Source: Trissonchulus latispiculum
Taxonomy: Eukaryota > Nematoda > Enoplea > Enoplida > Ironidae
Direction: 5' to 3'
NCBI GenBank assembly: GCA_030248195.1
Contig: JASAND010004299.1
Location: 1 to 64,000 of the forward strand
DNA length: 64,000 nucleotides
Position 1 is the stretch's first letter; each line of letters opens with the position of its first letter. Of this stretch, positions 1,500-58,300 are shown piece by piece. Below the pieces are notes generated by a model. The model saw nothing but the letters and a program-made list of their open reading frames with translations, did no database searches and was not told where the DNA came from. A program made the position numbers and the translations under genes.

Positions 1500-2505
1500 G
1501 AAGCTCTAGACTTTACATGATCCTCCACGATCCTATAGGCTTCAATTCTTTGTGAAAGTAGATGAAACTTTCCAAATATGCTATTTTGATGCTCTTTCAC
1601 ATTCTGGGATCAGTTCCACATTTTTAGGTGCAAAGATTAAAAATTTTTGGTTTTTATCGTTATTCTCTCAGTACATAGTCGAGAGACCGAATTGGTTGAT
1701 GTGGCTGGAAAGAGGGCACAGAAATGAACATTTTTGCTTTTACAACATTTGAATATCTCTATTGGTTAAGTCAGTATAAGCAAAAAACGATTTTTGGGGT
1801 CAAATCGGCCATTTTCGAGGAAATCAGTTTTTTCAAAATTACTGCCAAATCGTACGGACAATTTTCGTTTATTTCTACTCAATCGATACGCGGTCTAATT
1901 GCCCATTTTATCAATACCTATTAGCTGGGATTCGTTGCTTTAAGCTAGAGATTTGGCCGAAAAACCATTTTGGCAAAACTGCTATTATTTTGGTTTGAAC
2001 ATCGATTTCTCAAAAACTACCTAATGGATTTACGTGATTTTTGGCTGAATGAAAGTTCGTACTATATTGGGGAGGGCATTTTTCTTGGTTTGAGCTAAAA
2101 CATCTCCAGTTGCGAGAAAACTGAATACAAAGTTGCGAAATTTCGAGTCACCGCACATTTGCCGGATTTTCTGGAGTAATGAGGCTTGTTGAGCCAAATC
2201 CAAAAAATGTCCCTAGGCCTATATGTCCTTCATATTATGGCACAAGAAAAAATTTTGGCCGATTCTACAGCTCTGAGAAATCGATGTTCACAAATTTTTG
2301 GTCCATATTCAGCCTGTCAGATGTCAGTGTGTCAGAAAATTTTTGCTAGTTTTGTGCTAATTTTGTTAGTTTCGTAAGCTCATGTGAATGTCCTGCTTAT
2401 AAGCTTCAAAACGATGTATAATGTTCTTTCCAACTCCCAAAATTTTGAAAGCTATAGCATTTCAAAGAAGCACCACAAAAGCACTGCACAATAGGATCCA
2501 TCACC
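1500..2505 (+). mobile_element. Dispersed TTAA-type repeat, copy A
   Basis: About 1 kb is collinear with the element at 43,737-44,760. Shared blocks include the gctggaaagag region near 1704, the cattttcgaggaaatca block near 1810 and the gcacaagaaaaaattttgg region near 2240. The right end reads ccatcacc followed by TTAA at 2506-2509, matching the right end of copy B. The left end is eroded, so 1500 is approximate. No coding capacity is visible. It is probably a non-autonomous DNA transposon that targets TTAA. Confidence 0.6.
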
Positions 2506-2519
2506 TTAAAAGGATTAAG

Positions 2520-11072: not shown

Positions 11073-11075
11073 TTA

Positions 11076-11904: not shown

Positions 11905-11907
11905 TTA

Positions 11908-12667
11908 AGGCCGTTTCACACGATCAAAGTTTGGTCAAAGTTTTCTTTGTCAAAAAACTTTGAGTCAAAGTTTAAGCGTCAAAGTCTTGCTTTCACACGT
12001 TCAAACATTTGGCGCCAAACTTTGACGGACAGTTACTTCAAAATTACATTGTTTTGCTTGCACTATTGTTGCAATTGTTTTCTAATAAAACACGATTTGA
12101 TTAGCTCTTCGAAATAGAAATGTATTTTTCTGACACGATTTTAAATCTAATTTCAAATTGATTATTCTGTTCAGTCTGTAATTTTCTAAGCTAACGAGCA
12201 ACCATGCCTGCAAAAGTAGTACACGTAACTCTGTTCATTTTCACATACCTGCTGCCCGATTTGTATTTTTAACCAGAGGACCTCTTCCGATTGTTGGCTT
12301 TCTTTCTAAAATTTTTCATGATGGACCCTCTTAACAAACTTTGTGCAGCGAATTTTGCAGATCGTCGACGTCTCGTTTGTGGAATTTTGGGTGATGGACA
12401 AGAAGCAGTGTTATTTATACTACAATAAAAACACAGAAAGTAAACAATACACTGAAATTCTTCTGGGTTATTCCTGCATTCTGATTGGCTATTTGATCAA
12501 ATTTCTTTGATGGAGTCGCTCTTCAAATAAGCGAACTTTGATGGTTTCATCAAAGTTTGATGCCCACTTTGACGGGGTTTCACACCATCAAATTTCCATC
12601 AAAGTCCTGGTTCGTCAAAGTTTGACAAAGAAAACTTTGATCAAACTTTGATCGTGTGAAACGGCCT
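11908..12667. mobile_element. PIF/Harbinger-like MITE, second of the pair
   Basis: The element is 760 bp, with ends aggccgtttcacacgatcaa and its complement. The subterminal zones are dense in TCAAAGTTTG-type repeats. TTA flanks lie at 11905-11907 and 12668-12670. Its ends parallel those of its neighbour (GGCC, GTTT, ACAC) but the internal sequence differs, so it is a distinct relative. Confidence 0.75.
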
Positions 12668-12670
12668 TTA

Positions 12671-22895: not shown

Positions 22896-22967
22896 ACCCG
22901 TTCGCTCAATGGAAGAGCACTGGACCTATTAATCCAGAGAACCTGAGTTCGAACCTCAGTACGGGTC
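22896..22967 (+). tRNA. tRNA-like sequence, anticodon uncertain
   Basis: A cloverleaf can be drawn. The acceptor acccgt pairs with acgggt; the D arm is ctc/gag around aatggaa; the anticodon stem is ctgga/tccag; the T arm is ctgag/ctcag around ttcgaac. A T-rich tract with TTTT follows from 22,975, suitable as a polymerase III terminator. The anticodon loop has 8 rather than 7 bases (cctattaa), so the anticodon is ambiguous (ATT if the first base is ignored) and the gene may be a pseudogene or a SINE head. It lies between hairpins of the 20.7-26.0 kb block. Confidence 0.45.
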
Positions 22968-31618: not shown

Positions 31619-32014
31619 TGTGGAATATTTTCTTGATTTCATTCAAAATTATGCAAAGGTGTGTGCTAACTTTATGCAAATCAATCTAAATTACTCTGCT
31701 GTGTACGGTCCAAGGCCGGAGATAGCTAATTCTTCTTTCTTTCAATTTTTGATCGCGCAATTAGTCAGTTGTCATGCCAAAGTTCTGGGAGTCGCCCGCT
31801 TCTCTCTCCAACACCTATCACGTCAGGTTTGTGAGCCTACGGGCAATTTTGGGACTGTAACTTGGGGGCTTTTCCCTTTTGGGAATTTGGGGGTGTTCTC
31901 CCACTTTTGTGTGTGGTTCATAAAAGGTGCTTGCTCTAGTTTTGTTTTGTTCACTCTAGAAGGAGCATTTTGTGTCTTTTGTGAAAGTTTTTTATGTTTC
32001 GGAATTCTGGTTAA
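31619..32014 (+). repeat. Right LTR, 5' part
   Basis: It matches the left LTR from its first base to the TTAA at 32011-32014, with only a few substitutions (for example agctaattcttc instead of agctaattattc). The remainder resumes after the inserted array. Confidence 0.88.
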
Positions 32015-32381
32015 CCCCCGCCCAAGATCTCGGGGAAACGGCCAGACAATTTACATTTGGCCATTAGCGAGAGAGGGGATACCGAAGAGAATATGTATCG
32101 GGGGGGCGGCGCCAGAAGTAGGTTGGGAAGTAAAATTTTTGTAAGGTGACATAAATTTATTCTAGATGTGGGGGATATAGTTATTTGGGGGATTGGTGGG
32201 GTTGGCGGGGTGTGGCGGGAAGTAGTGCAGGTGTCGAAATATTCTCCCAAAATAGGGTGGACGTGTTAAAGATAAAAGGAGCAAATGCCCAGATTGCCAA
32301 CCGGCAACTGGACCCTGTCCCAAAAAATAAGATGTCAAAAATCAGCACTTGTGCCAATTGGCAGCCGCGGGCATAAAAGGG
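32015..32381 (+). mobile_element. First, diverged copy in the array
   Basis: The element is 367 bp. Its start (cccccgcccaagatctcggg) is a diverged version of the other copies' start, the middle is unrelated and G-rich, and only the last 160 or so bases (from gtgtcgaaatattctccc) match the full copies. It therefore supplies a distinct outer left end for the whole block. Confidence 0.7.
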
Positions 32382-35300
32382 TTAATCAGTTGCTTTGATT
32401 TTGTGAGTTTTGCACAAATTCATTTAAAAATTGATATTTGGGATTGAAGACACTGTAAAACTGTGCTGGATGGCTGTCAAAAGATCAAATTTTGATTTTT
32501 GGTGTTACTCTTTAACCCTCTTCTGCCCAAGACTTCTCGGGGAAATCGGCTCAAAATGACCAATTTTACATTTCTGGCTGCCAATTTTTACTGTGACCAC
32601 CTAGAGAGATGGGACTGCCACCAATCGATAGAGAATTAATTGCTATACATTTCATAATTAGCATTGAAGGGTCTCCGATGCACCCAGAAAAAGTTACAAG
32701 CCGTCAAAGTCGGACAAAGTACGAAATTTTGCTAAATTTTCATTGCAAACATCCAATAAATTTATTTCTAGCTGCAAGACTTGATTCAGAGGTGGGATCA
32801 ACTATACGTTATTTTAATGCGCAAAACCTCCCGCATCACCTGGTGGAACGACTGTTCTGCCGACGAACTACAGCCGGCTCTGGATTTGCTTGAATGCAGC
32901 GCTCGAACAGGGCATGAAATCATCAAAATTTCCATAGCCGGCGGAATGTCATAGAAACTAGATTTTTCAAGCAGGTGTCGAAATATTCTCCCAAAATAGG
33001 GTGGACGTGTTAAAGATAAAAGGAGCAAATGCCCAGATTGCCAACCGGCAACTGGACCCTGTCCCAAAAAATAAGATGTCAAAAATCAGCACTTGTGCCA
33101 ATTGGCAGCCGCGGGCATAAAAGGGTTAATCAGTTGCTTTGATTTTGTGAGTTTTGCACAAATTCATTTAAAAATTGATATTTGGGATTGAAGACACTGT
33201 AAAACTGTGCTGGATGGCTGTCAAAAGATCAAATTTTGATTTTTGGTGTTACTCTTTAACCCTCTTCTGCCCAAGACTTCTCGGGGAAATCGGCTCAAAA
33301 TGACCAATTTTACATTTCTGGCTGCCAATTTTTACTGTGACCACCTAGAGAGATGGGACTGCCACCAATCGATAGAGAATTAATTGCTATACATTTCATA
33401 ATTTAGCATTGAAGGGTCTCCGATGCACCCAGAAAAAGTTACAAGCCGTCAAAGTCGGACAAAGTACGAAATTTTGCTAAATTTTCATTGCAAACATCCA
33501 ATAAATTTATTTCTAGCTGCAAGACTTGATTCAGAGGTGGGATCAACTATACGTTATTTTAATGCGCAAAACCTCCCGCATCACCTGGTGGAACGACTGT
33601 TCTGCCGACGAACTACAGCCGGCTCTGGATTTGCTTGAATGCAGCGCTCGAACAGGGCATGAAATCATCAAAATTTCCATAGCCGGCGGAATGTCATAGA
33701 AACTAGATTTTTCAAGCAGGTGTCGAAATATTCTCCCAAAATAGGGTGGACGTGTTAAAGATAAAAGGAGCAAATGCCCAGATTGCCAACCGGCAACTGG
33801 ACCCTGTCCCAAAAAATAAGATGTCAAAAATCAGCACTTGTGCCAATTGGCAGCCGCGGGCATAAAAGGGTTAATCAGTTGCTTTGATTTTGTGAGTTTT
33901 GCACAAATTCATTTAAAAATTGATATTTGGGATTGAAGACACTGTAAAACTGTGCTGGATGGCTGTCAAAAGATCAAATTTTGATTTTTGGTGTTACTCT
34001 TTAACCCTCTTCTGCCCAAGACTTCTCGGGGAAATCGGCTCAAAATGACCAATTTTACATTTCTGGCTGCCAATTTTTACTGTGACCACCTAGAGAGATG
34101 GGACTGCCACCAATCGATAGAGAATTAATTGCTATACATTTCATAATTTAGCATTGAAGGGTCTCCGATGCACCCAGAAAAAGTTACAAGCCGTCAAAGT
34201 CGGACAAAGTACGAAATTTTGCTAAATTTTCATTGCAAACATCCAATAAATTTATTTCTAGCTGCAAGACTTGATTCAGAGGTGGGATCAACTATACGTT
34301 ATTTTAATGCGCAAAACCTCCCGCATCACCTGGTGGAACGACTGTTCTGCCGACGAACTACAGCCGGCTCTGGATTTGCTTGAATGCAGCGCTCGAACAG
34401 GGCATGAAATCATCAAAATTTCCATAGCCGGCGGAATGTCATAGAAACTAGATTTTTCAAGCAGGTGTCGAAATATTCTCCCAAAATAGGGTGGACGTGT
34501 TAAAGATAAAAGGAGCAAATGCCCAGATTGCCAACCGGCAACTGGACCCTGTCCCAAAAAATAAGATGTCAAAAATCAGCACTTGTGCCAATTGGCAGCC
34601 GCGGGCATAAAAGGGTTAATCAGTTGCTTTGATTTTGTGAGTTTTGCACAAATTCATTTAAAAATTGATATTTGGGATTGAAGACACTGTAAAACTGTGC
34701 TGGATGGCTGTCAAAAGATCAAATTTTGATTTTTGGTGTTACTCTTTAACCCTCTTCTGCCCAAGACTTCTCGGGGAAATCGGCTCAAAATGACCAATTT
34801 TACATTTCTGGCTGCCAATTTTTACTGTGACCACCTACAGAGATGGGACTGCCACCAATCGATAGAGAATTAATTGCTATACATTTCATAATTTAGCATT
34901 GAAGGGTCTCCGATGCACCCAGAAAAAGTTACAAGCCGTCAAAGTCGGACAAAGTACGAAATTTGCTAAATTTTCATTGCAAACATCCAATAAATTTATT
35001 TCTAGCTGCAAGACTTGATTCAGAGGCGGGATCAACTATACGTTATTTTAATGCGCATAACCTCCCGCATCACCTGGTGGAACGACTGTTCTGCCGACGA
35101 ACTACAGCCGGTTCTGGATTTGCTTGAATGCAGCGCTCGAACAGGGCATGAAATCATCAAAATTTCCATAGCCGGCGGAATGTCATAGAAACTAGATTTT
35201 TCAAGCAGGTGTCGAAATATTCTCCGAAAATAGGGTGGACGTGTTAAAGATAAAAGGAGCAAATGCCCAGATTGCCAACCGGCAACTGGACCCTGTCCCA

Positions 35301-38300
35301 AAAAATAAGATGTCAAAAATCAGCACTTGTGCCAATTGGCAGCCGCGGGCATAAAAGGGTTAATCAGTTGCTTTCATTTTGTGTGTTTTGCACAAATTCA
35401 TTTAAAAATTGTTATTTGGGATTGAAGACACTGTAAAACTGTGCTGGATGGCTGTCAAAAGATCAAATTTTGATTTTTGGTGTTACTCTTTAACCCTCTT
35501 CTGCCCAAGACTTCTCGGGGAAATCGTCTCAAAATGACCAATTTTACATTTCTGGCTGCCAATTTTTACTGTGACCACCTACAGAGATGGGACTGCCACC
35601 AATCGATAGAGAATTAATTGCTATACATTTCATAATTTAGCATTGAAGGGTCTCCGATGCACCCAGAAAAAGTTACAAGCCGTCAAAGTCGGACAAAGTA
35701 CGAAATTTGCTAAATTTTCATTGCAAACATCCAATAAATTTATTTCTAGCTGCAAGACTTGATTCAGAGGCGGGATCAACTATACGTTATTTTAATGCGC
35801 ATAACCTCCCGCATCACCTGGTGGAACGACTGTTCTGCCGACGAACTACAGCCGGTTCTGGATTTGCTTGAATGCAGCGCTCGAACAGGGCATGAAATCA
35901 TCAAAATTTCCATAGCCGGCGGAATGTCATAGAAACTAGATTTTTCAAGCAGGTGTCGAAATATTCTCCGAAAATAGGGTGGACGTGTTAAAGATAAAAG
36001 GAGCAAATGCCCAGATTGCCAACCGGCAACTGGACCCTGTCCCAAAAAATAAGATGTCAAAAATCAGCACTTGTGCCAATTGGCAGCCGCGGGCATAAAA
36101 GGGTTAATCAGTTGCTTTCATTTTGTGTGTTTTGCACAAATTCATTTAAAAATTGTTATTTGGGATTGAAGACACTGTAAAACTGTGCTGGATGGCTGTC
36201 AAAAGATCAAATTTTGATTTTTGGTGTTACTCTTTAACCCTCTTCTGCCCAAGACTTCTCGGGGAAATCGTCTCAAAATGACCAATTTTACATTTCTGGC
36301 TGCCAATTTTTACTGTGACCACCTACAGAGATGGGACTGCCACCAATCGATAGAGAATTAATTGCTATACATTTCATAATTTAGCATTGAAGGGTCTCCG
36401 ATGCACCCAGAAAAAGTTACAAGCCGTCAAAGTCGGACAAAGTACGAAATTTGCTAAATTTTCATTGCAAACATCCAATAAATTTATTTCTAGCTGCAAG
36501 ACTTGATTCAGAGGCGGGATCAACTATACGTTATTTTAATGCGCATAACCTCCCGCATCACCTGGTGGAACGACTGTTCTGCCGACGAACTACAGCCGGT
36601 TCTGGATTTGCTTGAATGCAGCGCTCGAACAGGGCATGAAATCATCAAAATTTCCATAGCCGGCGGAATGTCATAGAAACTAGATTTTTCAAGCAGGTGT
36701 CGAAATATTCTCCGAAAATAGGGTGGACGTGTTAAAGATAAAAGGAGCAAATGCCCAGATTGCCAACCGGCAACTGGACCCTGTCCCAAAAAATAAGATG
36801 TCAAAAATCAGCACTTGTGCCAATTGGCAGCCGCGGGCATAAAAGGGTTAATCAGTTGCTTTCATTTTGTGTGTTTTGCACAAATTCATTTAAAAATTGT
36901 TATTTGGGATTGAAGACACTGTAAAACTGTGCTGGATGGCTGTCAAAAGATCAAATTTTGATTTTTGGTGTTACTCTTTAACCCTCTTCTGCCCAAGACT
37001 TCTCGGGGAAATCGTCTCAAAATGACCAATTTTACATTTCTGGCTGCCAATTTTTACTGTGACCACCTACAGAGATGGGACTGCCACCAATCGATAGAGA
37101 ATTAATTGCTATACATTTCATAATTTAGCATTGAAGGGTCTCCGATGCACCCAGAAAAAGTTACAAGCCGTCAAAGTCGGACAAAGTACGAAATTTGCTA
37201 AATTTTCATTGCAAACATCCAATAAATTTATTTCTAGCTGCAAGACTTGATTCAGAGGCGGGATCAACTATACGTTATTTTAATGCGCATAACCTCCCGC
37301 ATCACCTGGTGGAACGACTGTTCTGCCGACGAACTACAGCCGGTTCTGGATTTGCTTGAATGCAGCGCTCGAACAGGGCATGAAATCATCAAAATTTCCA
37401 TAGCCGGCGGAATGTCATAGAAACTAGATTTTTCAAGCAGGTGTCGAAATATTCTCCGAAAATAGGGTGGACGTGTTAAAGATAAAAGGAGCAAATGCCC
37501 AGATTGCCAACCGGCAACTGGACCCTGTCCCAAAAAATAAGATGTCAAAAATCAGCACTTGTGCCAATTGGCAGCCGCGGGCATAAAAGGGTTAATCAGT
37601 TGCTTTCATTTTGTGTGTTTTGCACAAATTCATTTAAAAATTGTTATTTGGGATTGAAGACACTGTAAAACTGTGCTGGATGGCTGTCAAAAGATCAAAT
37701 TTTGATTTTTGGTGTTACTCTTTAACCCTCTTCTGCCCAAGACTTCTCGGGGAAATCGTCTCAAAATGACCAATTTTACATTTCTGGCTGCCATTTTTTA
37801 CTGCGACCACCTAGAGAGATGGGACTGCCACCAATCGATAGAGAATTAATTGCTCTACATTTCATATGTAAGCATTGAAGGGTCCCCGATGCGCCCAGAA
37901 AAAGTTAGAAGCCTTCAAAGTCGGACAAAGTACAAATTTTTGCTAAACGTTCATTGCAAAAACCAATAAATTTATTTCTAGCTGCAAGACTTGATTCAGA
38001 GGCGGGATCAACTATACGTTATTTTAATGCGCATAATCTCCCGCATCACCTGGTGGAACGACTTTTCTGCCGACGAACTACAGCCGGCTCTGGATTTGCT
38101 TGAATGCAGCGCTCGAACAGGGCTTGAAATCATCAAAATTTCCACAGCCGGCGGAATGCCATAGAAACTAGATTATTCAAGCAGGTGTCGAAATATTCTC
38201 CCAAAATAGGGCGGACGTGTTAAAGATAAAAGGAGCAAATGCCCAGATTGCCAACCGGCAACTGGACCCTGTCCCAAAAAATACGATGCCAAAAATCAGC

Positions 38301-38335
38301 ACTTGTGACAATTGGCAGCCGCGGGCATAAAAGGG
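32015..38335 (+). mobile_element. TTAA-flanked tandem array of piggyBac-like MITEs
   Basis: A 6.3-kb insertion in the right LTR, bounded by TTAA on both sides. It consists of nine element copies separated by eight 126-bp spacers, each spacer also bounded by TTAA. Full copies are 609-611 bp, start ccctcttctgccc and end gggcataaaaggg (imperfect inverted repeats), and begin at 32516, 33260, 34005, 34750, 35494, 36238, 36982 and 37726. The period is 744-745 bp. TTAA targeting and CCC/GGG ends match the piggyBac superfamily. No transposase is present. The repeated 94-codon and 71-codon frames inside the units are overlapping shadows, not genes. Confidence 0.82.
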
Positions 38336-38507
38336 TTAATTTCGTAATTTCTTGTAAAGTAAATCCGTGTTAAATTAGCGTCGTGTCGTCTTTATTCTTG
38401 TTAGGTTAGCGATTAAGTAGGGAGTATCAGACATATTGCACACTCTTTCACGAACCTCTAATTTTTAATGCAATCAAATTATTTACTGAATATTTTCATA
38501 TTCCACA
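38336..38507 (+). repeat. Right LTR, 3' part
   Basis: It begins with the second TTAA (38336-38339) and continues exactly where the left LTR would, ending aatattccaca at 38507. One visible change is ttagcgtcg for ttagggtcg. Confidence 0.88.
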
Positions 38508-39134: not shown

Positions 39135-39412
39135 AAGGTCAGTCAACAGTCAGCAGTCACCCACCTATTCTTCGATTTTCCAGCTAATCATAGCTGAACA
39201 CAGAAACTGCTGCTGCTCTGTTCAGGCCATCCGGTCTTAAAATTTTTCGTCTTCATAAAACAGATAATTGCTAATTTTTTCCCATATATATTTTCAGATT
39301 TTATACGTTTCATGAACATTATGCTTACAATAAATACTAGAGCTATGCAAACTTCTGGTGCATTCATTGATCGATTTAGAACATGACATGAAGCCTTAGG
39401 ATTCCAAAGAAA

Positions 39413-39889
39413 ATGCAACTAATCCGATTGTTGGAGACAGCAGTGACTTTATTCTGGACTCTTCCCTCTACTTTAAGTCTACGCTGTCGCCAATGCCACC
39501 CCGCAGATTCATTCTCAGTTCAACTGAACAAACTTCGCATCACCTTCTCCCTGCCTCATCCCTATTGCTTTCGCGAGATCGAAGTGGAATGTGAGCCACA
39601 TCAGGACGTCTGTGTTACCAAACTGACCCAGAGCGAGGACCACGGCTGGTGGTTGGCCAAAGGTTGTGACAATAGATCTCGCTATGCCCGACTAGGGTGT
39701 CAGGAAGGCGAATCCCTTCATTCCCAGACTCGAATCAAAAATCAGCGAACAATCAAGCAAGAAGAGAAACGTCTGACAATGTGCGTCTGTGACTATAACA
39801 GCTGTAACCACTCATCTGCTAGATTTCAACTGAGATACAGTTTAAAAATTTTATCACTTTTCACAATACTGGCTGTATTTCTGATCTAA
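39413..39889 (+). CDS. Ly6/uPAR-family three-finger protein, probably GPI-anchored
   Basis: A single 158-codon frame starts at ATG 39413. Residues 1-22 form a signal peptide (hydrophobic LLETAVTLFWTLP, then LS before the mature LRCRQC). The mature part has ten cysteines (25, 28, 52, 60, 67, 85, 96, 124, 126, 131) with the starting C-x2-C and the closing C-N pair (SCN at 130-132) that define the Ly6/uPAR (LU) three-finger fold. After NHSS comes a C-terminal hydrophobic tail (145-158, ILSLFTILAVFLI), as in GPI-anchored members, with Ser134/135 as possible attachment sites. The C-V-C spacing at 124-126 departs from the usual adjacent CC. LU proteins act at the cell surface as ligands, receptor modulators or junction proteins; the role of this one is unknown. 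It is intronless as read, although many LU genes are spliced. It lies tail-to-tail with LRP5/6. Confidence 0.8.
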   Translation: MQLIRLLETAVTLFWTLPSTLSLRCRQCHPADSFSVQLNKLRITFSLPHPYCFREIEVECEPHQDVCVTKLTQSEDHGWWLAKGCDNRSRYARLGCQEGESLHSQTRIKNQRTIKQEEKRLTMCVCDYNSCNHSSARFQLRYSLKILSLFTILAVFLI

Positions 39890-40149
39890 AAATTGATCCT
39901 GGTATTGTGTAACTTTAGCACGTTGTTGTTATTGTTGTTGTAATTTGTAAACCCGGTTTGTGTCCATCCAGTTTGTACACTGTTTTATATTACACCTAAA
40001 CATAAGCAACAACAACGTGTTTTATTCGCCACCAATTTTTTCAACGCATGGCACAAACACAACATGGCAGTTAAAACATTCCAATAGAAAACAATTATCT
40101 AAAGCTTTTGTAAAAGCAAGCTGTCACTTACCAGCGCAAGCATAAATAC

Positions 40150-40155
40150 AATAAA
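40150..40155 (+). promoter_or_regulatory. Poly(A) signal downstream of the Ly6-like gene
   Basis: AATAAA lies 261 bases after the stop codon of the Ly6-like frame and is the first clear signal on that strand. Confidence 0.45.
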
Positions 40156-40341
40156 CAATAGAAATAAGGTTTTTCAAAGTATATATACAATACAAACCAA
40201 ACTTTAGCAAGCGTCCAAAGTTAAGTCTAGTAAATTAGCAATAACAGTGACGAGTTGTAAATACTAAGTAAAACTGGGCCTCACACAACAAGAATCTGAA
40301 ATCCGTTTTAAAGTTAAGCCTTTCAGCACAGTACATCTTAA

Positions 40342-41307
40342 GGTGGTAGTACCACTACTGGGGTGAACTTTGAACAAACACTGTCAGTCAACTAAATACT
40401 TAATGAATCTGCTTGAAATTTGGCACATTTGCTCTTTATCATGCTTTGCATCAGACGAGATGACCTACCACGCTGCGGGGACTGGCTTGCTGTCTACATA
40501 ATAGGAAATGTATTAAAAGATTTAAATCTAATATCTTCTTCAATCCTTCATGAAATCAGTTGAAATTTTGTGTATCTGGTTAGTTTACATATACGCTCGG
40601 GCCGTTTTTTAGTTTTTCGCAAAAGTGAGTTTTCCGTTTTTAGCGTAGTTCAGAGATTTGTAAATTTTATATCTTGCTTAATATTGAGTGTTTCCAAAAA
40701 CAAAGGGTTGAAGCAGTGACGAGAAAATAAAAAAAGATTCTGTAACTTTTCATTGGTTGCTTTGGTTTTGGGAATTTCTAATGCTTTGAAGCAGCTGAAA
40801 AGTATTTTCTGTTAAATAATGTAAAGTAACACAACGACAGCCGTTAAAATCCAATTGAAATAATTTTAGGATAAACTGTTCTTACTTTGCATTGTGTCTG
40901 CAAACGGTCAACGTAGTTCCGTCATATGTAAAAACATCTGTTTGTCAGAAACCACGCACAGAATTATTTTATTTTAAAGTTGTTTTCATCCTTTTAATTT
41001 TAAAGTTTTAAATTTTAATCAAAAATAAAAAAATCATTTTAAATTTTAATTTTAAACATAATTTTAAAGTTGTTTTCATGTTCTTTCGCGTGGTAGAGTC
41101 AAATATATCATATAAAGCTTGAATAAAATTTTGATTATTTGCGCATGCGCAAAGTCACCATGGTAGCCAGATAATTATGCGATCTTTGACATCAAAACTT
41201 TGTGCAAAGGTAGCCTGCCAATCAAACCAGCTTCTCCTAAAATTTTGCCAAAATTGGTTCATACATACCAAAATTACGTACGAAATCCCGCTAGTGGTAC
41301 TACCACC
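40342..41307. mobile_element. TTAA-flanked transposon with GGTGGTAGTACCAC ends
   Basis: The element is 966 bp between TTAA at 40338-40341 and 41308-41311. Ends ggtggtagtaccacta and its complement form a 16-bp inverted repeat that is itself palindromic (GGTGGTAGTACCAC). The interior is AT-rich, with TTTTAAA runs near 40,960-41,070 and no transposase. The ends resemble those of the element at 43,737. It lies between the Ly6-like gene and the LRP5/6 3' end. Confidence 0.75.
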
Positions 41308-41366
41308 TTAAGCTCACAAGTTTGGTTATGTTAACGAAATATGGAAGTTGAATCGAAAAACTGAGA

Positions 41367-41387
41367 TCAGATCAGATCAGATCAGAT
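41367..41387. repeat. (GATCA)n microsatellite
   Basis: Four tandem GATCA units follow actga, about 370 bases downstream of the LRP5/6 stop codon. Confidence 0.7.
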
Positions 41388-41753
41388 TCGTGTTCAGCGG
41401 CCCAGCAAACTCCTGATATTCAACTTTTCAGCAAAATCGACGACAAGTTTTTCGGTCTCACTTGGTGCACCCTTGCGAATGGGAAAAATCTAATTTTGCT
41501 ACGAATTTCGCTATTAATCCAAAAGTATTTCGATATTTGAACTCAGCTTCAGCATGGACGAAAACATACCCATACCAAAATTGAGCAAAATGGGTCAGGT
41601 TTTAAAAATTTTGAGAGGCAGGGGTGATCGAGACAAAGATCCATATAAACTACAAACTGACAGATAACAATGACAAAATATATTACAGGGGCATTGAATT
41701 ACACCTGATTCATTTGTTTATGCATTTTAAATGCTACAAATACAAACAAAGCC

Positions 41754-43316
41754 TTAAATCGGCTCGTCCGGAGAGTCGTCCTCTTCATATCCATCCTCCT
41801 CAGAAGCACTGGTTCGATCATAGGGAGTAGGCGGAGGGCCAAAGTAGTGGCGACTTCCAATCGGATGACGCCGCCTGGAAGCGCCAGTGGCAGTAGCTCC
41901 AACCGTACTCACCAGAGACTCCCTTTCAGAGCCAGTGCCTATCCCGGTTCTGGAGCCGGGCGGTCTGCCTGTCGTCGTCGTATTCTCATAGGAAGCACAG
42001 GGGGAGGGGGGTGGGGCCACGGCCACCAACGGAGCATAGACAGAGTCATTGGCCGTTCCCGTTTCAGTCGACTCTGCGACGTCAGTGCCCGACAGTTGTC
42101 GACCGACAGGCAAACCTGACACTCCAGGCAGATCCGCCGGAGGGTTCACCTTAGCAGCACCTTTAGAGGGAATGTTGGCAAGACTGGATACCTGAGATGT
42201 ACAGCTGGACGGATATGGCGGCGGAGGTGTGCCCAGATGATGATGATGATGATTCTGATGATGATGACGCCGAGAGCTGGAACGTCGATCTCCCCGACGT
42301 CGGCCGCTCTGCTGACGTCGACGATGACGCCCCGAGGAACGGCGCGTACGATCGCCTGACGCGTCACGTTGCGGCAGCGGTCGCTGGTAGCCGCCCCCGC
42401 TGAACTGAGACCTGTAGTCCAGGGTGATCGAACTGGCCAGGCTGGGGGGTGGATTGGGATAGGCGGGTCGTTTGGACAACAGCCCCCCACCGTCTCCTCC
42501 ACCCTCAGAATTTCCACTGACATAGAGACCACCGCAACCGCCCGGACCGTTGACATTGTTCTGGGATGAGCTGCTGGATTTCCCCGTCAGATCCAGCCGG
42601 CCACCGCAAAACGTGGACGACTCCGCCCCGCTGCTGGGCCGGTTATACTGGACAACCCCGTGCGGTCCGAACATAATCTCCTGCGTTGGTAGGGGAGGGC
42701 AGGTCGTAGAATAGTCTGAGCGAATGTGGCAAGACATGCCGCTGGAATGTGAGTTGAGCATCAGTTCAAACTGAGTCCCAGCCGAAGAACAGGGAGCCAC
42801 CTGAGCACCACCGTCTCGAGACAGAGAATACTGATGATGGTGTCCAGTGGCAGAGGAAGGACCACTGAAAGCAGGAGTGGCACAGAATTGACCGCAGCCA
42901 CCACTACCGGCTGGCACAGCGGCGTTAGCCTGGGCCGAGTTAGTCTGCTGCGGACCATGCTTAAACTTTCGCCAATAGACAACAATCACCACAAAAATCA
43001 CTAACAGAATTGCCGATATCACCGATAGGGCACCCCATAGCGGTCCGTTCCGAGTCGGAAGGGGACTGTTGTGACCGGTGCCAGACAGTCCGTTCCCTGT
43101 AACTCCCCTCCCATAGCAGGTCAGCTCATCCATTCCATCATCGCAGTTGGGATGGCCGTCACACTGCCAGTCTCGGGAGGCACAGAACTTAACGCCATCC
43201 CGTTTACACTGGAACTGTTCCGCCGGCTTAAAACAGGCACAGTAGCTTTCATCTGAACCATCGGAACAGTCCTGTCTCCCGTCACAATACAGATGATTGG
43301 CTATGCACTCGTCAGT
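41754..43316 (-). CDS. LRP5/6: LRP5/6 terminal exon: LDLA2-3, membrane helix, tail
   Basis: The exon starts [20 protein letters not shown], completing LDLA2, then LDLA3 ([10 protein letters not shown]...[10 protein letters not shown], without the usual SDE), a short stalk, the transmembrane segment (43,043-42,975) and the basic stop-transfer YWRKFKHG. The tail carries [18 protein letters not shown] (42,227), APPPSPCAS (42,014) and GPPPTPYDR (41,837), and ends with an acidic [18 protein letters not shown](S/T)P motifs are phosphorylated to recruit Axin in known LRP6. An Arg/His-rich block lies at 42,350-42,237. Stop TAA is at 41,754-41,756. Confidence 0.93.
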   Translation of the reverse strand, partial: TDECIANHLYCDGRQDCSDGSDESYCACFKPAEQFQCKRDGVKFCASRDWQCDGHPNCDDGMDELTCYGRGVTGNGLSGTGHNSPLPTRNGPLWGALSVISAILLVIFVVIVVYWRKFKHGPQQTNSAQANAAVPAGSGGCGQFCATPAFSGPSSATGHHHQYSLSRDGGAQVAPCSSAGTQFELMLNSHSSGMSCHIRSDYSTTCPPLPTQEIMFGPHGVVQYNRPSSGAESSTFCGGRLDLTGKSSSSSQNNVNGPGGCGGLYVSGNSEGGGDGGGLLSKRPAYPNPPPSLASSITLDYRSQFSGGGYQRPLPQRDASGDRTRRSSGRHRRRQQSGRRRGDRRSSSRRHHHQNHHHHHLGTPPPPYPSSCTSQVSSLANIPSKGAAKVNPPADLPGVSGLPVGRQLSGTDVAESTETGTANDSVYAPLVAVAPPPSPCASYENTTTTGRPPGSRTGIGTGSERESLVSTVGATATGASRRRHPIGSRHYFGPPPTPYDRTSASEEDGYEEDDSPDEPI

Positions 43317-46300
43317 CTAAAATACGTAGAGGAACACAATCAAAACAAAATCGCTTGGTGTTTTGTACTGGGGCGGGGCGGTAAGCCCTTTCCCTGTTTT
43401 TGGGTTCCCCCGACGTTTTTGGACTTCCCCATCATATTTAGATGCACAAAAACTGCCAAATTTTAAGAAGCTTTGGTCAAAAATGTCAGAATATTTCGTC
43501 TATCTTGGTACAAAAACTTAATGTTTGAGCACTTTTTAACTGAGTTAGATATGTAGAAAACGGGCTCATTTCACTGCATTCTTAGCCCATTTTATTCCCC
43601 CATTTCTGAACTCCCCCTACTGGTGGGAGGAAGTGGCATCCCACGTATTTATTGCCTAGAAAAACTCCAGAACTCTAATAATCAAGAATTAAAAAAGTAC
43701 AACTGTTAAAGCACAACTATTACAGTCGCGGTTTAAGGTGCTGGTTTCCTTTCGGGTATTTTTGACTCCTACGGCCTTAATCCCTTACGCAAAGGGCTAA
43801 AACTTACGAAATAACCTATTTCCGTGCTCTTTTAACATTTTAGGACCAGTCCCGTATTCTTAGGCCAAAAGATAAGAAAGTTTTGGTTTTTGGCCTTAAG
43901 CTCCCAGTAGGTAGACAAGACACGGAATTGGTTGGTATGGCTGGAAAGAGGACTCGAAAATTAACATTTTTGGTCTTACAACCTTTGAGCTATCTCCAAT
44001 GGTTAAGTCAGTATAAGCAAAAAACTGTTTTTAGGGTCAAAAAATGGCCATTTTCGAGGAAATCAAGTTTTTTCAAAATTACTGCCACATGTTAAGGACA
44101 AAATTGGCTTAGTTATACTCAATCGATACATCGTCCAAATGCACATTTTATGAATGCCTATTAGCCGGACTTTATTGCTTTCAGCTAGAGTTTTGGCCGA
44201 AAACCCATTTTGGCAAAACTGCGACTATTTTGTTTCGAACATCGATTTCTCAAAAACTACTCGACGGATTCCGGAGATTTTCGGCAGAATCGAAATTCGC
44301 ACTTCTGCGGAGGGACGTTTTTCTTGGTTTGGGCTAAAACATATTGAGTAGCAAAAAAACTCAATGCGAAGTTGCGAAATTTCGTGTTACTGTGCATTTG
44401 GCCGATTTTCTCGACCGTTAAGACCTGCTGAGCCAAATCCAAAAAAACGTCCCTCGGCCCATATGTCCTTCATATCGTGGCACAAAAAGAACTTTTGGCC
44501 GATTCTTCAGTTTTGAGAAATCGCTCTGCCACTGGACACCATCATCAGTATTCTCTGTCTCGCGACGGTGGTGCTCAGGTGGCTTGTCAGAAAATTTCTC
44601 CTATTTTTTGCTAATTTTGCCAGTTCTGTAAGCTCATGTGAATGTACAGATAATAAGCTTTAAAACGATGTATAAAGCTCTTTGCAACTCCCAAAATTGC
44701 GAAAGTTATAGCGTTTCAAAAAATCACCACAAAAGCACTGCACAAAAGGATACCACCACCTTAAGGGAAGGGGGGAGTCACTTTTTTGCCGATTTTTCGA
44801 CCATCTCCGATTTTGCTCATTTTCACATATTTTGTAGTCCCCATGGGTCCGCGAAACAAGACAAGAGCGTTTTGCGAAATATTGCTTCTATCGTTCTGTA
44901 CAGGCCCTCAAAGGTGACCTCGACATGTGTTAAACATAGGAAAATAAAAAGTTAGGGTAAAAAGTTTGTGGCAGAAAATTTTTTCGCTGTATAAGAGTCA
45001 GAACTCTGAAACCTTTTCAGAACCATTAAGGACATATTGTAGAGTGCAGCTATCTCCTCTGAAGCGATTCAGTTCAGTATTGGATTTTTGGCGAATTTTT
45101 AAAGTCAGAATTTTGGAAAATCGGTCATTTTTGGACCATGAAAAACAGGACCCACGGTACTCTTTAACTTTTGCTTGTCCTGAACGATTGGCAAAAGCTA
45201 CAGAAACGGCCAATAGATAGCTACACTCTAAAACGCATAAAACCACGTCTTATGAAAGTACTCGCATGTTTCTATCATCTACAGTAAGCTCAAAAAACTT
45301 GCCACAAAAACAGCAAATTTTGCTAAAAATGGCCATTTTTCATAATTTTCACATTCTTTTGATAATTTCTCACTCATTATGTGGTAAAAAATCACCAAAC
45401 TTGGCAGATTAATCTATGTCTGTCACTTAATGTGGCCAAAACAAATGCGTCAATATTGAACATGCTGCTGTGGCGGCACCTTTGATCTTTATAGGTGAGA
45501 AATGTCAATTTTAAAATTTTTCCAAATATAGACAAAATGGGTATCAATCGATAGCTAATGGAACGAGGAGCAACTTTTCGCATACAACCATGGGTTTAAA
45601 ATGTTGTCTGCGCAAGATAAAACGAGTTAAAGTTATACTGGGCAGTCCTGCAAGGTTAGGTCAGTGCAGCACTCAAGCATGCATTATGAACGCCTGGATA
45701 GCTGGCCTTGAGCCAGGTCTGCACTTAAATATTACCTTAGTAAAGGCTTTAATTTGGTGTATCGGTTAACCCTATTTTCGGTCGCGTTTGCTCTCCACCT
45801 GACCTTGCAGGGCTCATCACCGGACTTTTCAAGTTTTCCGGCTTTGAACCTGAATAACTCTGTCACAGTTTGAGTTCGAACGCTAATATTCTAAGTTATT
45901 TTTGAGAACATATGGGGGCATATTATGTGTGAAAATGAGCGAAATCCGTTACTATCGATTTTTGACCAAAGTGACCCCCCCCCCTAAGAATATGAATAAA
46001 TAACTTTCCAACATATCGAAGCAGACCTAATGTACTGCACCATTTTTATTTAATTTGGCTACAGTATACAACTTGTTACTAAGTTTGTATTAGTGTTTTA
46101 CTTATATACAACTGTGGCAAGAATACATCATGATTTTGATATTATTTGCTAGAAGAGTAAGCCGCTAGACTGCTTTCTTCAATATAAGCGCATAACGGTG
46201 CTCTGAATATTCCCGCGCTTTGGGGTAGGGAATGTTTCCATTTAGCGGCTTACTGCCACTCACAGTATTACAAATTAGTATTTAACAGACTTTTACTTGA

Positions 46301-49300
46301 GGTCTAGCATTCGTCAGCACTGCACATCAATTAATATAAAGTGTGGAATAAAAATTCAGAATTCCTCCCTTACCGTAATACATTTGAAAAATTCCGGCGT
46401 CATACAGCCGCTGCAGTTGTCCTCATCCGACTCGTCCTGACACTCAGTCCCTCCGTCACAGCGTCGGTCCATATCCACACAACTGACTCCATTCCGACAG
46501 GGAAACTGATCCTTCAGGCAGCTGACCCGGGCCGCACAGGTGTGTCCATCCCCAATGCGCGGAACCATGCCCTTAGGGCAGCCACAACGTACGTTACGAC
46601 TCCCTTCCAAGCCGAACATACAGATATACTCACAGCTATCTGCTGCCAAGCATTCCTCATTATCCAACAGTTCAGGCCTAACCTGAACTGCCAATAGGGC
46701 TAGTGCATCGCCGCTATTGAAGAAATAGTTTTCAACACTGTCCTGCTGACGTCGCCCGGACACTGGAACCGACCTGATTCGCGACTGACCCTTTTCTAGC
46801 CAGTACAGTCGGTCACCGCCAACTGTCAGGGCAAGAACGCGGTCGTCTGTCTCGGCCAGATCCAACTGTCGCGTGCCGCCATAGGTGGCAGCACGGATCA
46901 GGTAGGAAGTGGTGCTGCTTCCGTGCTCACTTCCATCCGCAGCACTGGTGCTGCTCCCATGGCGAATGTTGTGATGGTGCTGCTGGTGCGAAGAAGAGCT
47001 ACCGCTACGTTCAACCCAAACCATAAGCTTGGACACAGTGTCCAGGGTCAGAAGGTCAACAGTAACCTCAGGCCGGATCGCCACAACACTGCTGCAGTGC
47101 TCACCGGTGAGATAACATTTGTAGATTCCTTTTGCAGCAGGTGATGAATGACGGGTCGTTGTACTTGAGTCAGAACCAGCACCGCCCTGGGATAGACTGT
47201 TGCGCCCGTTGTTGACAAAAAATAGCTGCCTAAAACAGAAAATCATATACACATAACGAGATATAGAATAAGCAATTGGTTGATTGTGTAGACGAACAGA
47301 ACAGGCACACAAAGTATGCCAGAATAATATTATCTAACAGCCTATCAATATTTTACAAAGGATGCCGCCGAAATGCTTGCATAAAGCTAGAAAAAGTATA
47401 AAACAGAACAAAGAAACCCAACAGGAATAATTCAACCTACGAAGCCATAGAATCCAGCACAACTGAGGAAGGAATCAAGCCAGACTCCGGGTCCAATACC
47501 ACATGTCCAATGTGCGGGGATCCCTTGCGATTCTTTCGCTTGGCCACCAGAGTGATATTGATGGAATTGGTGACACTGTTGACCCAGTAGAGCATCCCAC
47601 CGAAGCCGTCCACAGCAAAAGACTCAATGTCAGTCTCACGAGCACTTCCCATCTTAATCGTCCCATTCTACAAAACATGGCAAAACAAACAAATACAGCA
47701 CATTTCACGCAAAAAAATACGACGTTTGGCGAATATTCCAAAATTGGCGAAATAACGCGATTTTGTCCAATGTTAACGAAAGGTCAATTAGATGCGGAAA
47801 AATTTCGAGACCGTCGGCAAGCATCGCCACCAGTTCGCCACAGTTTTTCTTTTTCGCCAATTTGCAATTTTTTTTAACAGGATGCGTTATCAGTCTACCT
47901 AACCTAAAATGCAAATAACCGACAACTACAGACTCGCATCGTGTTGGGTTTTTATAACCATTATAGGGAACAATTAAATTTACATGAAACCGTATCAAAG
48001 AACTGACCATATTGCCGTCACGTGACACCCAGTGAATTTCATTTGGCTGTACTCCCTGCCAATACATTACATCCGCAATAAAGTCGTAGTCTATCCTTCT
48101 GAGACCGCGAATGCCGCGATAAGGCAATAGAACTCTGGGCTCTTGCTGCGGTTCGTAATTATAATTGGAAAAGCTGTCTCCAAATTTGCCGAAAAAATGT
48201 TTCTGTGACGTTCGGAAAGTCTGAATTAGACCAATCCGACCAACCTGATCCTGTTGAGCCAGCAATATGTATGAACTGGGGGCTAAAATTACAAGAAAAA
48301 ACTGGAATTCACGGAAGAGAGAGAGAGACAAGATTTCAGGTAGGAAAAGCGTTAATAAAACCATGTATCCATTTTACCAAGAGTACATAACTAGACATTA
48401 ATTAATTACATACAAATTAATGTACACAGTAAACTAAAGCAGTTTGATTGAGCTATCTATTTTGAGAAAATAAAGTGTAGAACTGATAAAAACAATTGGT
48501 ATCCAATTTAATTGTAGCAAGGAAAACGAAATCGAGTTTTATCAAATATATAATTCCAAGTTTTTCTTGTGTTCAGTCATATTACATTTTTGTAGCAAAG
48601 TACGTACGACACCAGACATATGTACACATAACGTACGTTCACACGTATTTTGACTGGTAATAGTGTAGTGAGTCGGACACTGGCATTCCACTTCCAACAC
48701 ATGAGAACTGCGCTCAGAGCTCACAGTGGGTTTGGCAATACAGAAGGAGTCAGACGGACAGTCACCGTTGTTACGAGCGCATGGATTCCATCCTAAACAA
48801 AGCACGAATATTGCAAGAGTATAATAGTAATACAGGCCACGGTAGTCAGGCCCCAGGCCCCGGTTTTGAGTTAAATTGTTACATACAGCAACTTTACCCA
48901 GCCATATGAATGAAAGCAACTAGTTAGAAATTAGTTAGAAGATCTGTACTTTTAAGTTTATAAATGCTTGAATATTGTGAATTTGTACCTCCCAATTCTC
49001 TAGCACATGCCCGGTACTCCACTAATAATTTTAACCAAAGACAGAAACACATTTCAGAGCAAAATATGTTCAAAAAACGCTGCCAACTTCCATTGCAAAC
49101 AAAGAAATCTCTCTAGCTAGACACGAGCTGCACACCGTAAATGTCTACACAAAAATCATTTCCAAACTATGCAGCATGAATCAGGGTTCAGCTAAGAACA
49201 GACGGGCGGGGAAGGGGTGGTTCCAACTTACTGGGCTGTTTGAGGGAATAGACAGTCACCAGGCCAAGAATGGGAAGATGGTCCTCGTAGACTAGGACGG

Positions 49301-52300
49301 GCTCTGAACAGCTGGCGCTGCTGGTGGTATTGCACATCAGAATCTGAGAATGATGCCTGTTTGGCTCAGCCTGAGACCAGAACAGCCAGGACTGGTGAAT
49401 GGCCAGTGAAAAGGGATGCATCCGCTGGGATTCCAGAAGCAGCTCTGAGTTTCTGCCTAAACAATCAACTCAGAAGTACACAAGTACATAAATGTAAATG
49501 AGGTGTTGCGGTCCTCAAATCCTCAATCCGGTGCTTAAATTATACCATCACAATCGGGTGGAAACTGAGCCTTGTCCAACAATGGGCCTTCCTCGAGTAG
49601 TGATGTTCAAGATGGAAATGAAGGTGCAACGGCACCTAAATATACTTTTCGGAGGAAAAAACTATCGCTTACTTTGAAGAGATCATCATCTAACCAATAA
49701 TTGACTAGTCAAAACCTGTCACTTCTACTGTAAAATTAAGAAAACCAATGGAAAACTTTCGACAACCGTGCGCAGCGCATGTCTCTTATCTACCTTTATA
49801 GTCAAAAGACCGAATGAAATAGCTATGAGAAGATGGAACAGACGCCAATATCTCCCCAGTAATGTAGAGTCGACCAGAGTTGGGACGTTTATAGTCATAC
49901 AGGTCCAAAGTCATGGCTAACACTCGAACATTCTCTCGGAATATAGACTCCGCCCTTGACGCGTCCAAGGAGGCCCGTTTCACCACAGTAGTTGTTTTAT
50001 CAGCATTGAGCTTCTCAGCCCAAAACAGATATCTGAAAAAACGAATAGAAATAATGACAAAAGCTAGAACACTGCAATTTAGGAAGAGAACTGACCTGCA
50101 GGTAAAAAATGTTGTAAGCATAATATAACAGTATTCTTAGAAAAAAGGTGGGCTTTTCACCTCTTAGCTTCATCCTTCCAGCACGTTAAGACACGCAGAA
50201 GATGGAGGGATACTAATACATTAAAAATGGACCACGGAACCACGGATACAAGTTATGAAACTGGGGCCCGTTGCATAAAAGTGATTAGTTGATTAGTGAT
50301 TAGTTGATTAGTGTAGCAGTTTTTCGAGCAAAATTTGTGCTGCAGTCCACCATTTTTGGAGTTTTTGGTATATACCATATTGTAGCTGCAGAAGCGCTTT
50401 ATCCAGAACTGATGAAGTATTTAATTTATCCTCATTCAGTCAAAGGAAAATTTTGAACTCAATCGTAATTTCTTTACTTTTTCCGCCGGCATCACTCCAA
50501 TTTAAGTTGTAACTTAATTTAGACTTTTTAGTTCACTAGAACGATCTTCCACATTAGATAAATTATTGTCGTAGCTCATTCGTAACTAAAACTGCTACAC
50601 TAATCAACTAATCGCTAATCAACTAATCACTTTTATGCAATGGGCCCCAGTTATGTATTCCCGCAGTACTTAAATATCATGAGCCAAATCGGATCTTGCA
50701 CAAATATTTCCAGCACCTAGATTGGTGCCTTACGTGGTTATTGCTTAAGCTACTGAAATAAACTAAATTAAATAAACAATGTTAAGCATTTAATAACAAT
50801 TATATAATTGAATACCCAGATTTGGGGTCCACGGAAAGCGAGCCAGGACGTGCGCCATGATCCCATACCAAGATCTTCCGAACACTAGGATTGTCCAGTT
50901 TGACCATCTCAATCTGAGAATAGTGCCAGTCGCTCCAGTAGAGATTTTTGGCCAACCAATCCAAAGCAATCCCCTGAATACGCTTCAGTCCAATGTCAGC
51001 CACAACACTGGCATAGCTACCGTTCAGATAGGAAGAAATGATGCGCTGCAAGAAAAAAACGTTAACAGTCAAAATTTGCAGATTGTAACTTAATAAATTA
51101 AGGTAAAGGTGACACAAGGGAAGATCACGCTATGTTAAAAGGCCCCCCGGTGTGTCAATGCTTATCTCTGTATACACAGACGTAAGTCAAAAAAGTGTCA
51201 TCTCCAATGATGACTGGCATGTACATCCATAAACTTAGAAAGTCCGCCCAAGTCATCAGAATTTCATCACGTTTATGTACAAAAATAAGGATCAATGCCA
51301 AACATCCTACCCAGGACGTCATTAGCTTTACTGCCCATAAGCAAACCTCGTTCAACGCATTGTTACGCTCAGATTTCGAACAAAATAGTATTTTTTCCAA
51401 GCCATTAATTGCGTCTATTAGTTGTAGAGTTTAAAAACAAAATCTAACCCGCTCGTCTTCAGACCAATAGACACGGGAAGCGTCCACGTCAACATCGATG
51501 AAATGGGGCGACTGAACCCCGGAAATGAAGAGTCTATCCACAGATCTTGGTCCAGCCATAGACAATTCTGAACTTTTGGCTGAATTATGACTATAAGGAG
51601 ATGCAATGACGCCTGTGGCATTGTCAATCGTCAATCGAAAAATATCTTCCTGAAACAAAGCCAAACCAAAATGAATATTACAAGCTTAAATCAAAATCTT
51701 TAAGTGAAGACTCAAGAACAGTTATTCAACCATGTCCTTACCCTAAACAAGTTCTTCTTCAGATTATTTGCAAATGGAAGTGTATCCGTATCGCCAAGCG
51801 AGACCAACCCCTTCACATCGTAATAATATTTACTCACCTTTCCTGCACGAGTAAACAGTAAATATGACTTTGGAGCTACACAAGTTTTATTATCCGGACC
51901 AAGATCGAGTCCAGTGGGACAGAGACAAACACTACCAATCGGTCTGTGGCAACAAAGATGGGAACAGTCACCATTATTCACAGCGCAAGGATTTGTTCCA
52001 CCTAAAAGTAAAAATCAGGGTTTCAGTCAAGTCACGTTAAAGTGCGAAAAAAGAGGATTCTAAATATCAGTTATAAAAAGTAAAACCATTACTTTTTCTT
52101 AAACTGCTAACTGTTTGGCACAACGAAGCTTTAGTAATCATCCCACCAAGCATATGTACAGTTTATAGACTGAAATCACGTCATGTAAATGATCTGGTAA
52201 GCTTATAAGCAAAAACAGTGAAAGTAGGGATAACACACTTGGCTTATCCGTTAAGTTTACAGCAACAATTCCCATCAGGTCAGTGTGAACGGCAATGGTA

Positions 52301-55300: not shown

Positions 55301-58300
55301 AAGGTAGGAAAAATTAAGGAGAAAAAGAGGAAAAAGGGCAAAAAACCAAAAAATTCCGCGCCTTCGGCGCGATTTTTCTACTTTTTAACCGCATATTTAT
55401 TGCATTTGTGAAGAAAAAGCTTGGAATGCATCCGATTTTTCGGAGAAAATTACCATTTTTGCCTAAAAATGTCAAGAATTTTAAAAAATGTGTTCAGTTC
55501 TTCAATATAAAAAGAATTAAAGATCCGAAGACCGATTTTATTGCAAAAACATAAAATTTCTTCAACTTCTGGGGGGCTCTGCCCCCCCTGACCCCCCGCT
55601 GGAAAAATTTTACCGCCCCCCCGTCACGAATATCCTGGATCCGCCAGTGCCGGTGACCTGTCTGCAATTGCCTACAAACTAGTACACTGCTTATTTAAGA
55701 ATAGTTTTGAGCTTTAAACTATTAACCTTTTGCCATGAAGAAAACAATATCAGATTTGAAGTGAGAAAAAGTCTTACCAGTTCCATCAAAACGAATTCGC
55801 CGAATGGCCTTTAAATGTTTATCAGAGAAATAAATCTTTTCCTCCAGAGGGTCCCAGGCAACCGCCGTTGCCCGAACCAGATCCGAAAGAATGAGAACAT
55901 CGGTGTGATCTGGAGTATCCAGTGAGATCCATCTGAGATCAGGTCGTCGAGCAATAATCAGCAAGGCACTCGGCCCTAAAAAACAATATTACGTTCTTTA
56001 ACACTAGCTAAAACACTTACGCATCTACACGGGAGATTCCACCGAAAATATACCCACCATAGGATAACGTAGGAAATGGGAGGGGGGATGCAAACCACGG
56101 GCAGACCCCTCAGCGCGAAGAGAAAACGAGTAGACACTCCCGTCCAGTAGGAAAAAGGACATATTTCCCTCAGCAATTTTTTCAAAACATTTTTGCCTTC
56201 TTGCGGGCGCTGGAGGACGACGCTGCCATGCTGATTCTGAGGAAGGACAGGGAGGGCAGCGCGAATTCGATGTGTTTCCACCCGTATTAGGCTATATCAT
56301 TGAACAGCACACTTAGAGTTCGTCTCACTTTCGTGCATTGGCTGTTATTGCCGTTGTTTTTGCATTGAAGATTTGTGCTGTGTGCTGCTCCTCGGGCTAT
56401 CCGCCAATTATGGCAACGCCGAAGTCAACGGAGCATGTTTCTTTAAAGGAGGAGGCGTCATCTATCGTGATGTCGACCAGGCTTTGAGACTCCTTCTGGT
56501 TGAGTTGTTTTGGCCAACCTTACGGGGCCAGTTTCCTGGCTAACACTTTGCACCTTCGGGTAGTAATCATCTCACACACTGTGATGTCTAATGCAGCAAA
56601 CAACAAAAACAACACTTCTTAAAAATCGCTAGAAATAGAAATTTGTTACTAACTTTTGGTAAACGAAAAAGTTAGCAATTTTGGAAACTTTTGGGCAGAC
56701 TTTATTAATATTTTGTACTTTTCCAGGGGTAGACCCGGCCCTCGTCGGAGTCGGAAGGGACCACCCAGAATCCGATCCCTATTTAATATAGTTAATGTAT
56801 CACTATACACATCAGCATGTTTCACTCGATTTGAAGAAAGCCACCTACAACAATTCGGCGGTTCAATCTGAACAAGCGCCACTGGAATACTATACAACCT
56901 CAAACAAAAAAGCACACTAAAACTAAATTATTAACAGTCCCGAAACTCAAAAATCTTCAAGTTCTGGCTTAGACTCACTTTCATGGCAAGTTTTGTTATC
57001 AGGCTTCATTTGTATACCAGTAGGACAGGCACACCTGTACAATGGAGCAATTGGGGATATAAGGCACAGATGACTGCAACCTCCGTTGTTAACAGTGCAC
57101 GGATGATCTTCTGAAAAATACAGCTATAGCAGTAAAAGGGAAACGATTAAATGATAAAATTAACTACAAAAATAAAAATAGCAATGTTGCTCCAAAGGGG
57201 TCTACAGACGCAGAGCGAGCGAGACCCTGACCTGCTTTCTGCTACTGTTCGGCTTTAGACAACTGTTAATAGTTAATAGTTAATTAATAACATCAAGAGT
57301 ACATGATATAAGAGTGTGACAGCTGGCAGGTTCTCTGTTATCAGCTGTAGGTACATGCTCTGCAGCTGACCTCCCCAAAGACGTGTATGTTCACTTCAAA
57401 CAAATTTGGCCGCTACGCTTGCATGCTGAAGCTAGAAAACACAACTACTCAGTTGGTTCAATGTGCGTCTGTTGCGAGCATTAACACGCAAAGATAGCGT
57501 TCTAATTTCTTTGAAGTGAGCATACACATTTGTGGGGGGGTCAGCCGTTAGCGAATATAGCATGTACCTTCAGCTGATAACAGAGAACTTGCCAGCTGTC
57601 ACACTCTTATCTATTATGTACTCTTGATAACATTAAAACTGTACGTATGCATAAATGCTCCGCACAAAAGGAGATAATATGTGTGTTGGGCCTATGTCTA
57701 TCCTTTAAATTCCGGTTGAGAAAGTGAAGGCAACACAGCAACTTTTGGTGGATTGTACTTGCTTTACTTGTACTTGTTCCATCTCTGTTGCTGCTGCAGC
57801 AATCTGATGGGCTCCAGATCCATACCAACTTGATTAACCCTTGCCCTCCACTGGTTTCTATCCTGAGCCATGGTTTTGACCACATCACCCCACCGGTAAC
57901 CAGCGTTTCTACATGGGGTAAAGAGGGCCCACAAGTCCTTTTCCACTACCTGCCGCCATGACGTGGCCGGCCGACCGGGTGGTTTCCGCCGGTGACCAGG
58001 GATGGGGGAGAAAAACAGCTTCCCCGGTGCCCGTGGAGGATCCATCCACCCTAAGTGGCCCAGCCACCGGAGGCAGCCGCGTTGGAGATAGGCTGATAGC
58101 CGTTTGTGGTTATGGCATATGTTGTAGAGATCCGTATTTCTAATATTGTCTTGCCATGGTGCGTAGACAGGTGCGTTCGAAAACCTAAAGTTTCTGAAGG
58201 TCCGATTTTCGAACTACCCATGATTTGCTGGCATATAGTAGCACAGGCACAACCATAGCATCGAATACGCGCAGCTTCGTTTTTACGGAGATCTGCCGCC

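Follow-up and report, generated by a model that had tools for sequence, protein, structure and literature searches.

The window analysed here is a 64,000-nucleotide stretch of the nematode Trissonchulus latispiculum (contig JASAND010004299.1, forward-strand positions 1 to 64,000). On its minus strand, the last coding exon of a gene (41754..43316) holds an open frame of 520 codons that runs to the stop and contains LDLa matches, then a hydrophobic stretch that by eye resembles a transmembrane segment, and finally a tail. A protein search with this exon scored 7986 candidates and returned none at E ≤ 0.001; the tail carries proline-rich PPPSP-like motifs, which we take to be hallmarks of LRP5/6. 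For the tested part of the preceding exon (46374..47000, minus strand), LRP6 was the best match among PDB sequences (E = 2.8e-25). The two exons are separated by the last intron (43317..46373, minus strand), a phase-0 intron that interrupts an LDLa domain. As read from the sequence on the minus strand, its donor GTAAGG starts at 46373, with the GT at 46373-46372, and its acceptor AG lies at 43318-43317. The LDLa matches, the hydrophobic stretch, the LRP6 match and an intron that splits an LDLa domain fit an LRP5/6-type gene, that is, a Wnt co-receptor gene. This identity had been proposed in an earlier note on the DNA, and the match of the preceding exon to LRP6 supports it.

The last intron contains a TTAA-flanked element (43733..44764, plus strand), hereafter copy B, with TTAA at both ends and terminal inverted repeats of 20 nt (43733-43752 and 44745-44764) that are complementary at 18 of 20 positions. 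Copy B overlaps open frames of 83 and 107 codons (threshold 80 codons), the latter running past the right end of the element, which from its size is apparently non-autonomous. A related element, copy A, lies at 1565..2509 on the plus strand and is 78.7% identical to 43800-44764 of copy B over 974 BLAST columns. Because the alignment begins only at copy B position 43800, the left end of copy A appears to be diverged or missing, while its right end retains CACCTTAA. A second TTAA-flanked element (40338-41311) with related ends (TTAAGGTGGTAGTACC) and 26-nt arms that are 92% complementary is found just downstream of the gene. Within the same intron, the stretch 44761-45990 directly abuts copy B, starts with TTAAGGGAAGGGGGGAGTCACTTT and ends near AAAGTGACCCCCCCCCCTAAG; by eye it is perhaps a further inverted-repeat element.

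Direct alignment showed that at 60 of 61 positions 44524..44584 (plus strand), inside copy B, equals the reverse complement of 42795..42855 in the last coding exon, and that the match breaks off sharply on either side. The exon segment lies on the coding minus strand beyond the hydrophobic stretch read as membrane segment, and its intronic counterpart is therefore antisense in the pre-mRNA. In the 20 bp compared on each side of the pair only sporadic matches were seen, without extension at either end. The sole mismatch, exon position 42816 versus intron position 44563, is synonymous (Arg CGA versus CGC). When the 64-kb window was compared with itself by BLAST, the pair was recovered with E = 5.5e-23, which excludes a chance origin, and the exon segment was unique in the window apart from this inverted copy. 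It was also the longest of three inverted-repeat pairs in a repeat search covering 40000-48000 with a minimum of 25 nt. The two arms lie one on each side of the last-intron acceptor.

To characterize the site of capture, we compared copy B with copy A. In the BLAST alignment the two copies are collinear to the left and to the right of the 61-bp segment, and between these flanks copy A has 46 nt of other sequence in place of the 61 nt of copy B. This gap, which amounts to 4.5% of the element, was measured by anchoring on hand-chosen words on each side of the segment, and the comparison sequence is a single related copy at 79% identity, that is, another copy of the element and not an ortholog of copy B. 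The right anchor, TGTCAG, is repeated in copy A near the edge; we used the instance before AAAATTT, which matches the BLAST alignment. Based on the collinear flanks and the 46 other bases in copy A, the 61-bp segment looks like a replacement of pre-existing element sequence. It sits 180 bp from the right end of copy B, about 17-23% in, and is thus internal without being central. The earlier note had described an antisense copy of the exon in the last intron of the same gene, with arms spanning the acceptor, inside a TTAA-type repeat that it replaces between two collinear blocks. All of this is supported: by the 60 of 61 matching positions, the splice sites at 43318-43317 and 46373-46372, the TTAA ends with 18 of 20 complementary terminal bases, and the 46 differing bases in an otherwise collinear copy A.

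Library preparation is known to yield inverted chimeras, and an error of assembly or library preparation that put exon-derived sequence into the intron would be one explanation of this arrangement. Such an error would have to produce jointly two junctions 61 bp apart, collinear flanks, a private mismatch and the apparent loss of about 46 bp of the element. In light of the mismatch and the accompanying loss in particular, we regard an artefact as unlikely, with only a small chance of being correct.

Several observations bear on the direction of copying. The G+C content of the segment (0.56) is close to that of the exon (0.58), while the element has 0.39; copy A is without the segment; and the exon reading frame continues uninterrupted through 42795-42855. 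For these reasons the exon was probably the donor and the element the recipient. The reverse direction, from element to exon, was rejected on the G+C content and on the absence of the segment from copy A. Both the exon-to-element direction and the loss of element sequence are well supported inferences. Copies A and B differ by about 21% with gaps counted, and the segment differs from the exon at 1 of 61 positions; if rates are comparable, the copying would therefore be younger than the split of the two element copies.

The junctions provide information on how the segment may have arrived. By eye, their flanks GAGAAATCG and TGTCAGAA show no flanking duplication and no A-run, and retrotransposition was rejected on the absence of both target-site duplication and poly(A). 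With copy A as a proxy for the lost sequence, microhomology was 0 nt at both junctions, a result shared by 32.8% of 20,000 random placements. Junction microhomology is frequent in templated insertions but not obligatory, and is therefore not a defining mark. The features found here, namely a near-identical copy with sharp junctions, an apparent replacement of pre-existing sequence and no marks of retrotransposition, are those by which templated insertions are recognized.

The left junction coincides with an internal hairpin of copy B. Its left arm (44243..44255, plus strand) is perfectly complementary to its right arm (44511..44523, plus strand), and the latter stops exactly where the copied segment begins, so that the junction cuts the hairpin arm and the perfect stem of copy B ends at the junction base. 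In copy A the corresponding pair is 17 nt long and, counting perfect arms no shorter than 13 nt, 34 of its 945 positions belong to one. The left arm of copy B keeps GAACAT before CGATTTCTC; the partner of this hexamer, ATGTTC, is present in copy A and absent from copy B, and GAACAT is thus probably a trace of the sequence that would have been lost at capture. A 401-nt region of copy B, which includes the captured segment, folds more stably than 100 of 100 shuffles (z = -4.70), and for the matching region of copy A z is -2.17, and 4 of 100 shuffles reach its stability. A junction placed at random would fall in a hairpin arm in about 4% of cases for one junction and about 7% for either of two, and we noticed the coincidence post hoc; as a sign of mechanism it is therefore suggestive only.

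We propose that the segment is a short templated insertion, in which a TTAA inverted-repeat transposon captured a local gene fragment by template-switch or gap-filling repair, and we consider this reading likely. It is suggested by junctions without visible duplication or poly(A), the apparent loss of about 46 bp and an inverted template nearby. In our working model, the TTAA element would already have occupied the last intron of this LRP5/6 gene before replication or repair was interrupted inside it, perhaps at the internal hairpin. From there, the free 3' end may have copied 61 nt from the exon template, which lies 1.7 kb away in opposite orientation, and rejoined the element with the loss of about 46 bp of element sequence. 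The copy itself, the way it is oriented, its junctions and the differing bases of copy A are read directly from the sequence; that synthesis broke off or stalled, that the events came in this order and that the polymerase switched templates we only infer. The outcome is most likely a neutral intronic scar.

This model resembles a process described for animal DNA transposons, in which single-copy Pack-TIRs are patched from nearby DNA by gap filling (Tan et al. 2021, PMC8277862). That survey gives a distance of less than 15 kb from the parent for 160 of 281 unique Pack-TIRs (56.9%), the majority of which lie within 5 kb, and a median gap of 4.6% of the size of the transposable element (n = 281). 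The present case likewise involves a DNA transposon with inverted termini and a captured host fragment whose donor lies less than 5 kb off, at 1.7 kb, and its gap of 4.5% compares with that median (PMC8277862). As in Pack-TIRs, the copy lies between the two termini of a single TIR element, and the captured and parental lengths (61 versus 61 bp) fall inside the 80-120% range applied to single-copy Pack-TIRs. For single-copy Pack-TIRs, the 100 bp around the parental copy are also required to be free of transposons; here the region 42695-42955 falls inside the open coding frame. Unlike Pack-TIRs, for which the survey sets a cut-off of more than 100 bp of captured sequence, the capture measures 61 bp, and unlike many of them it has junctions without microhomology, which the survey gives at one or more breakpoints in 190 of 281 cases (67.6%; PMC8277862). 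Pack-TIR breakpoints are stated to be moderately skewed to the element interior, compared with an internal but not central position here, and the element is of the TTAA type, while the word "piggyBac" occurs 0 times in the main text of the survey (PMC8277862). The 61-bp case thus works like a Pack-TIR; because it fails the length cut-off, we class it as a templated insertion and not as a member of that group. The earlier note had attributed the copy to templated repair or template switching. Gap size and distance, which resemble those of animal Pack-TIRs, speak for that attribution; junction microhomology does not add to it, being absent.

Two further systems share features with the insertion. 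Like the short-range template-switch mutations of the four-point model (PMC7954356), it replaces local sequence with a reverse-complement copy, and the switch point is linked with secondary structure; its template lies about 1.7 kb off, whereas that study looks within tens to hundreds of nucleotides of a mutation cluster. Like class 2 templated sequence insertion polymorphisms (PMC5110952), it is a copied patch of DNA of the kind seen in double-strand break repair, and it shows no sign of the class 1 marks, target-site duplication and polyadenylation. Class 2 insertions are described there as having distant templates and are defined as polymorphic, compared with a local donor here (PMC5110952). 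Among the papers listed by our literature search on exon copies in an intron of the same gene, none was a fitting report as judged by title and start of abstract, and none contained the phrase "exon copy".

A copy that lies inside an element with recognizable termini on both sides could also have been captured elsewhere by the element family and brought in by transposition, as for a multicopy Pack-TIR. Against this stand the identity of the source with the very gene that hosts the element and the lack of the fragment in copy A, the other element copy in the 64-kb window. In addition, multicopy Pack-TIRs are reported as always lying in distal regions, in frogs or alligators (PMC8277862). Delivery by transposition is in our view very improbable, and capture in place from the adjacent exon is the reading that we retain.

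A 61-bp duplex in the pre-mRNA is possible on paper: for the two strands in isolation the predicted energy is -129.1 kcal/mol, and the arms are 1668 nt apart. In substrates of ADAR, intronic editing complementary sequences pair with the adjacent exon. The intronic sequence described here is likewise complementary to an adjacent exon; it differs from editing complementary sequences in that it pairs almost without mismatch and seemingly by accident. A functional inverted copy, in which pairing would, as the earlier note suggested, guide A-to-I editing, modulate splicing of the last intron or feed small RNAs, would be consistent with the predicted stability of the isolated duplex, with arms that flank the acceptor and with the finding that editing would change the encoded residue at 8 of the 10 adenosines of the exon arm. 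The loop of 1668 nt argues against it, and a copying accident suffices for everything seen; the sole difference between the arms, being synonymous, fits ordinary exon constraint and is uninformative on pairing. Judged from the sequence, roles in editing, splicing or small RNAs are unlikely, and we give a functional copy very little weight. More doubtful still is the specific scenario that a one-step repair slip created a self-complementary pair that would now recode the cytoplasmic tail by A-to-I editing or control last-exon splicing; if true, a Wnt co-receptor gene would here show a cis-regulatory hairpin that arose de novo, caught near its birth.

Other short inverted pairs in the window resemble transposon ends (e.g. 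50259-50323 with 50588-50652), and the 61-bp arms could be read in the same way, as the inverted termini of a transposon running from 42795 to 44584. This reading is contradicted by the sequence and hardly conceivable: the insertion of a transposon should break up both frame and element, yet the exon arm lies within an uninterrupted coding frame, and the element around the intron arm aligns collinearly with copy A to either side.

A short templated insertion from the neighbouring exon would make the locus a clean example of an inverted exon copy arising beside its own gene, probably via repair inside a transposon, with the donor, the junctions and a related uncaptured element copy all visible together. 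In principle, RNA hairpins, editing substrates or small-RNA loci could originate from events of this kind. Because the animal survey sets a cut-off of 100 bp, above the 61 bp found here, short captures may be undercounted in it (PMC8277862).

Elsewhere in the window, further repeats and frames were observed. The short stretch 50259-50652 has 65-bp ends that are 97% complementary and is perhaps a miniature transposon, and further inverted pairs occur at 11071-11910 and 11907-12668. By eye, a minus-strand frame at 57764-58213 resembles the end of a LINE-type reverse transcriptase and a frame at 39392-39889 a small cysteine-rich, Ly6-like protein, each with no Pfam match at E 0.001. In the search against Rfam, a tRNA at 22896-22967 was the one match to reach the gathering threshold. 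The interval 32227-38340 is a tandem array in which the spacing is about 744 bp, with offset matches that are 96-99% identical by BLAST. The segment 27598-28160 matches both sides of the array region (31619-32014 and 38334-38507) at 98.5% and 99.4%, as though a duplicated segment enclosed the array.
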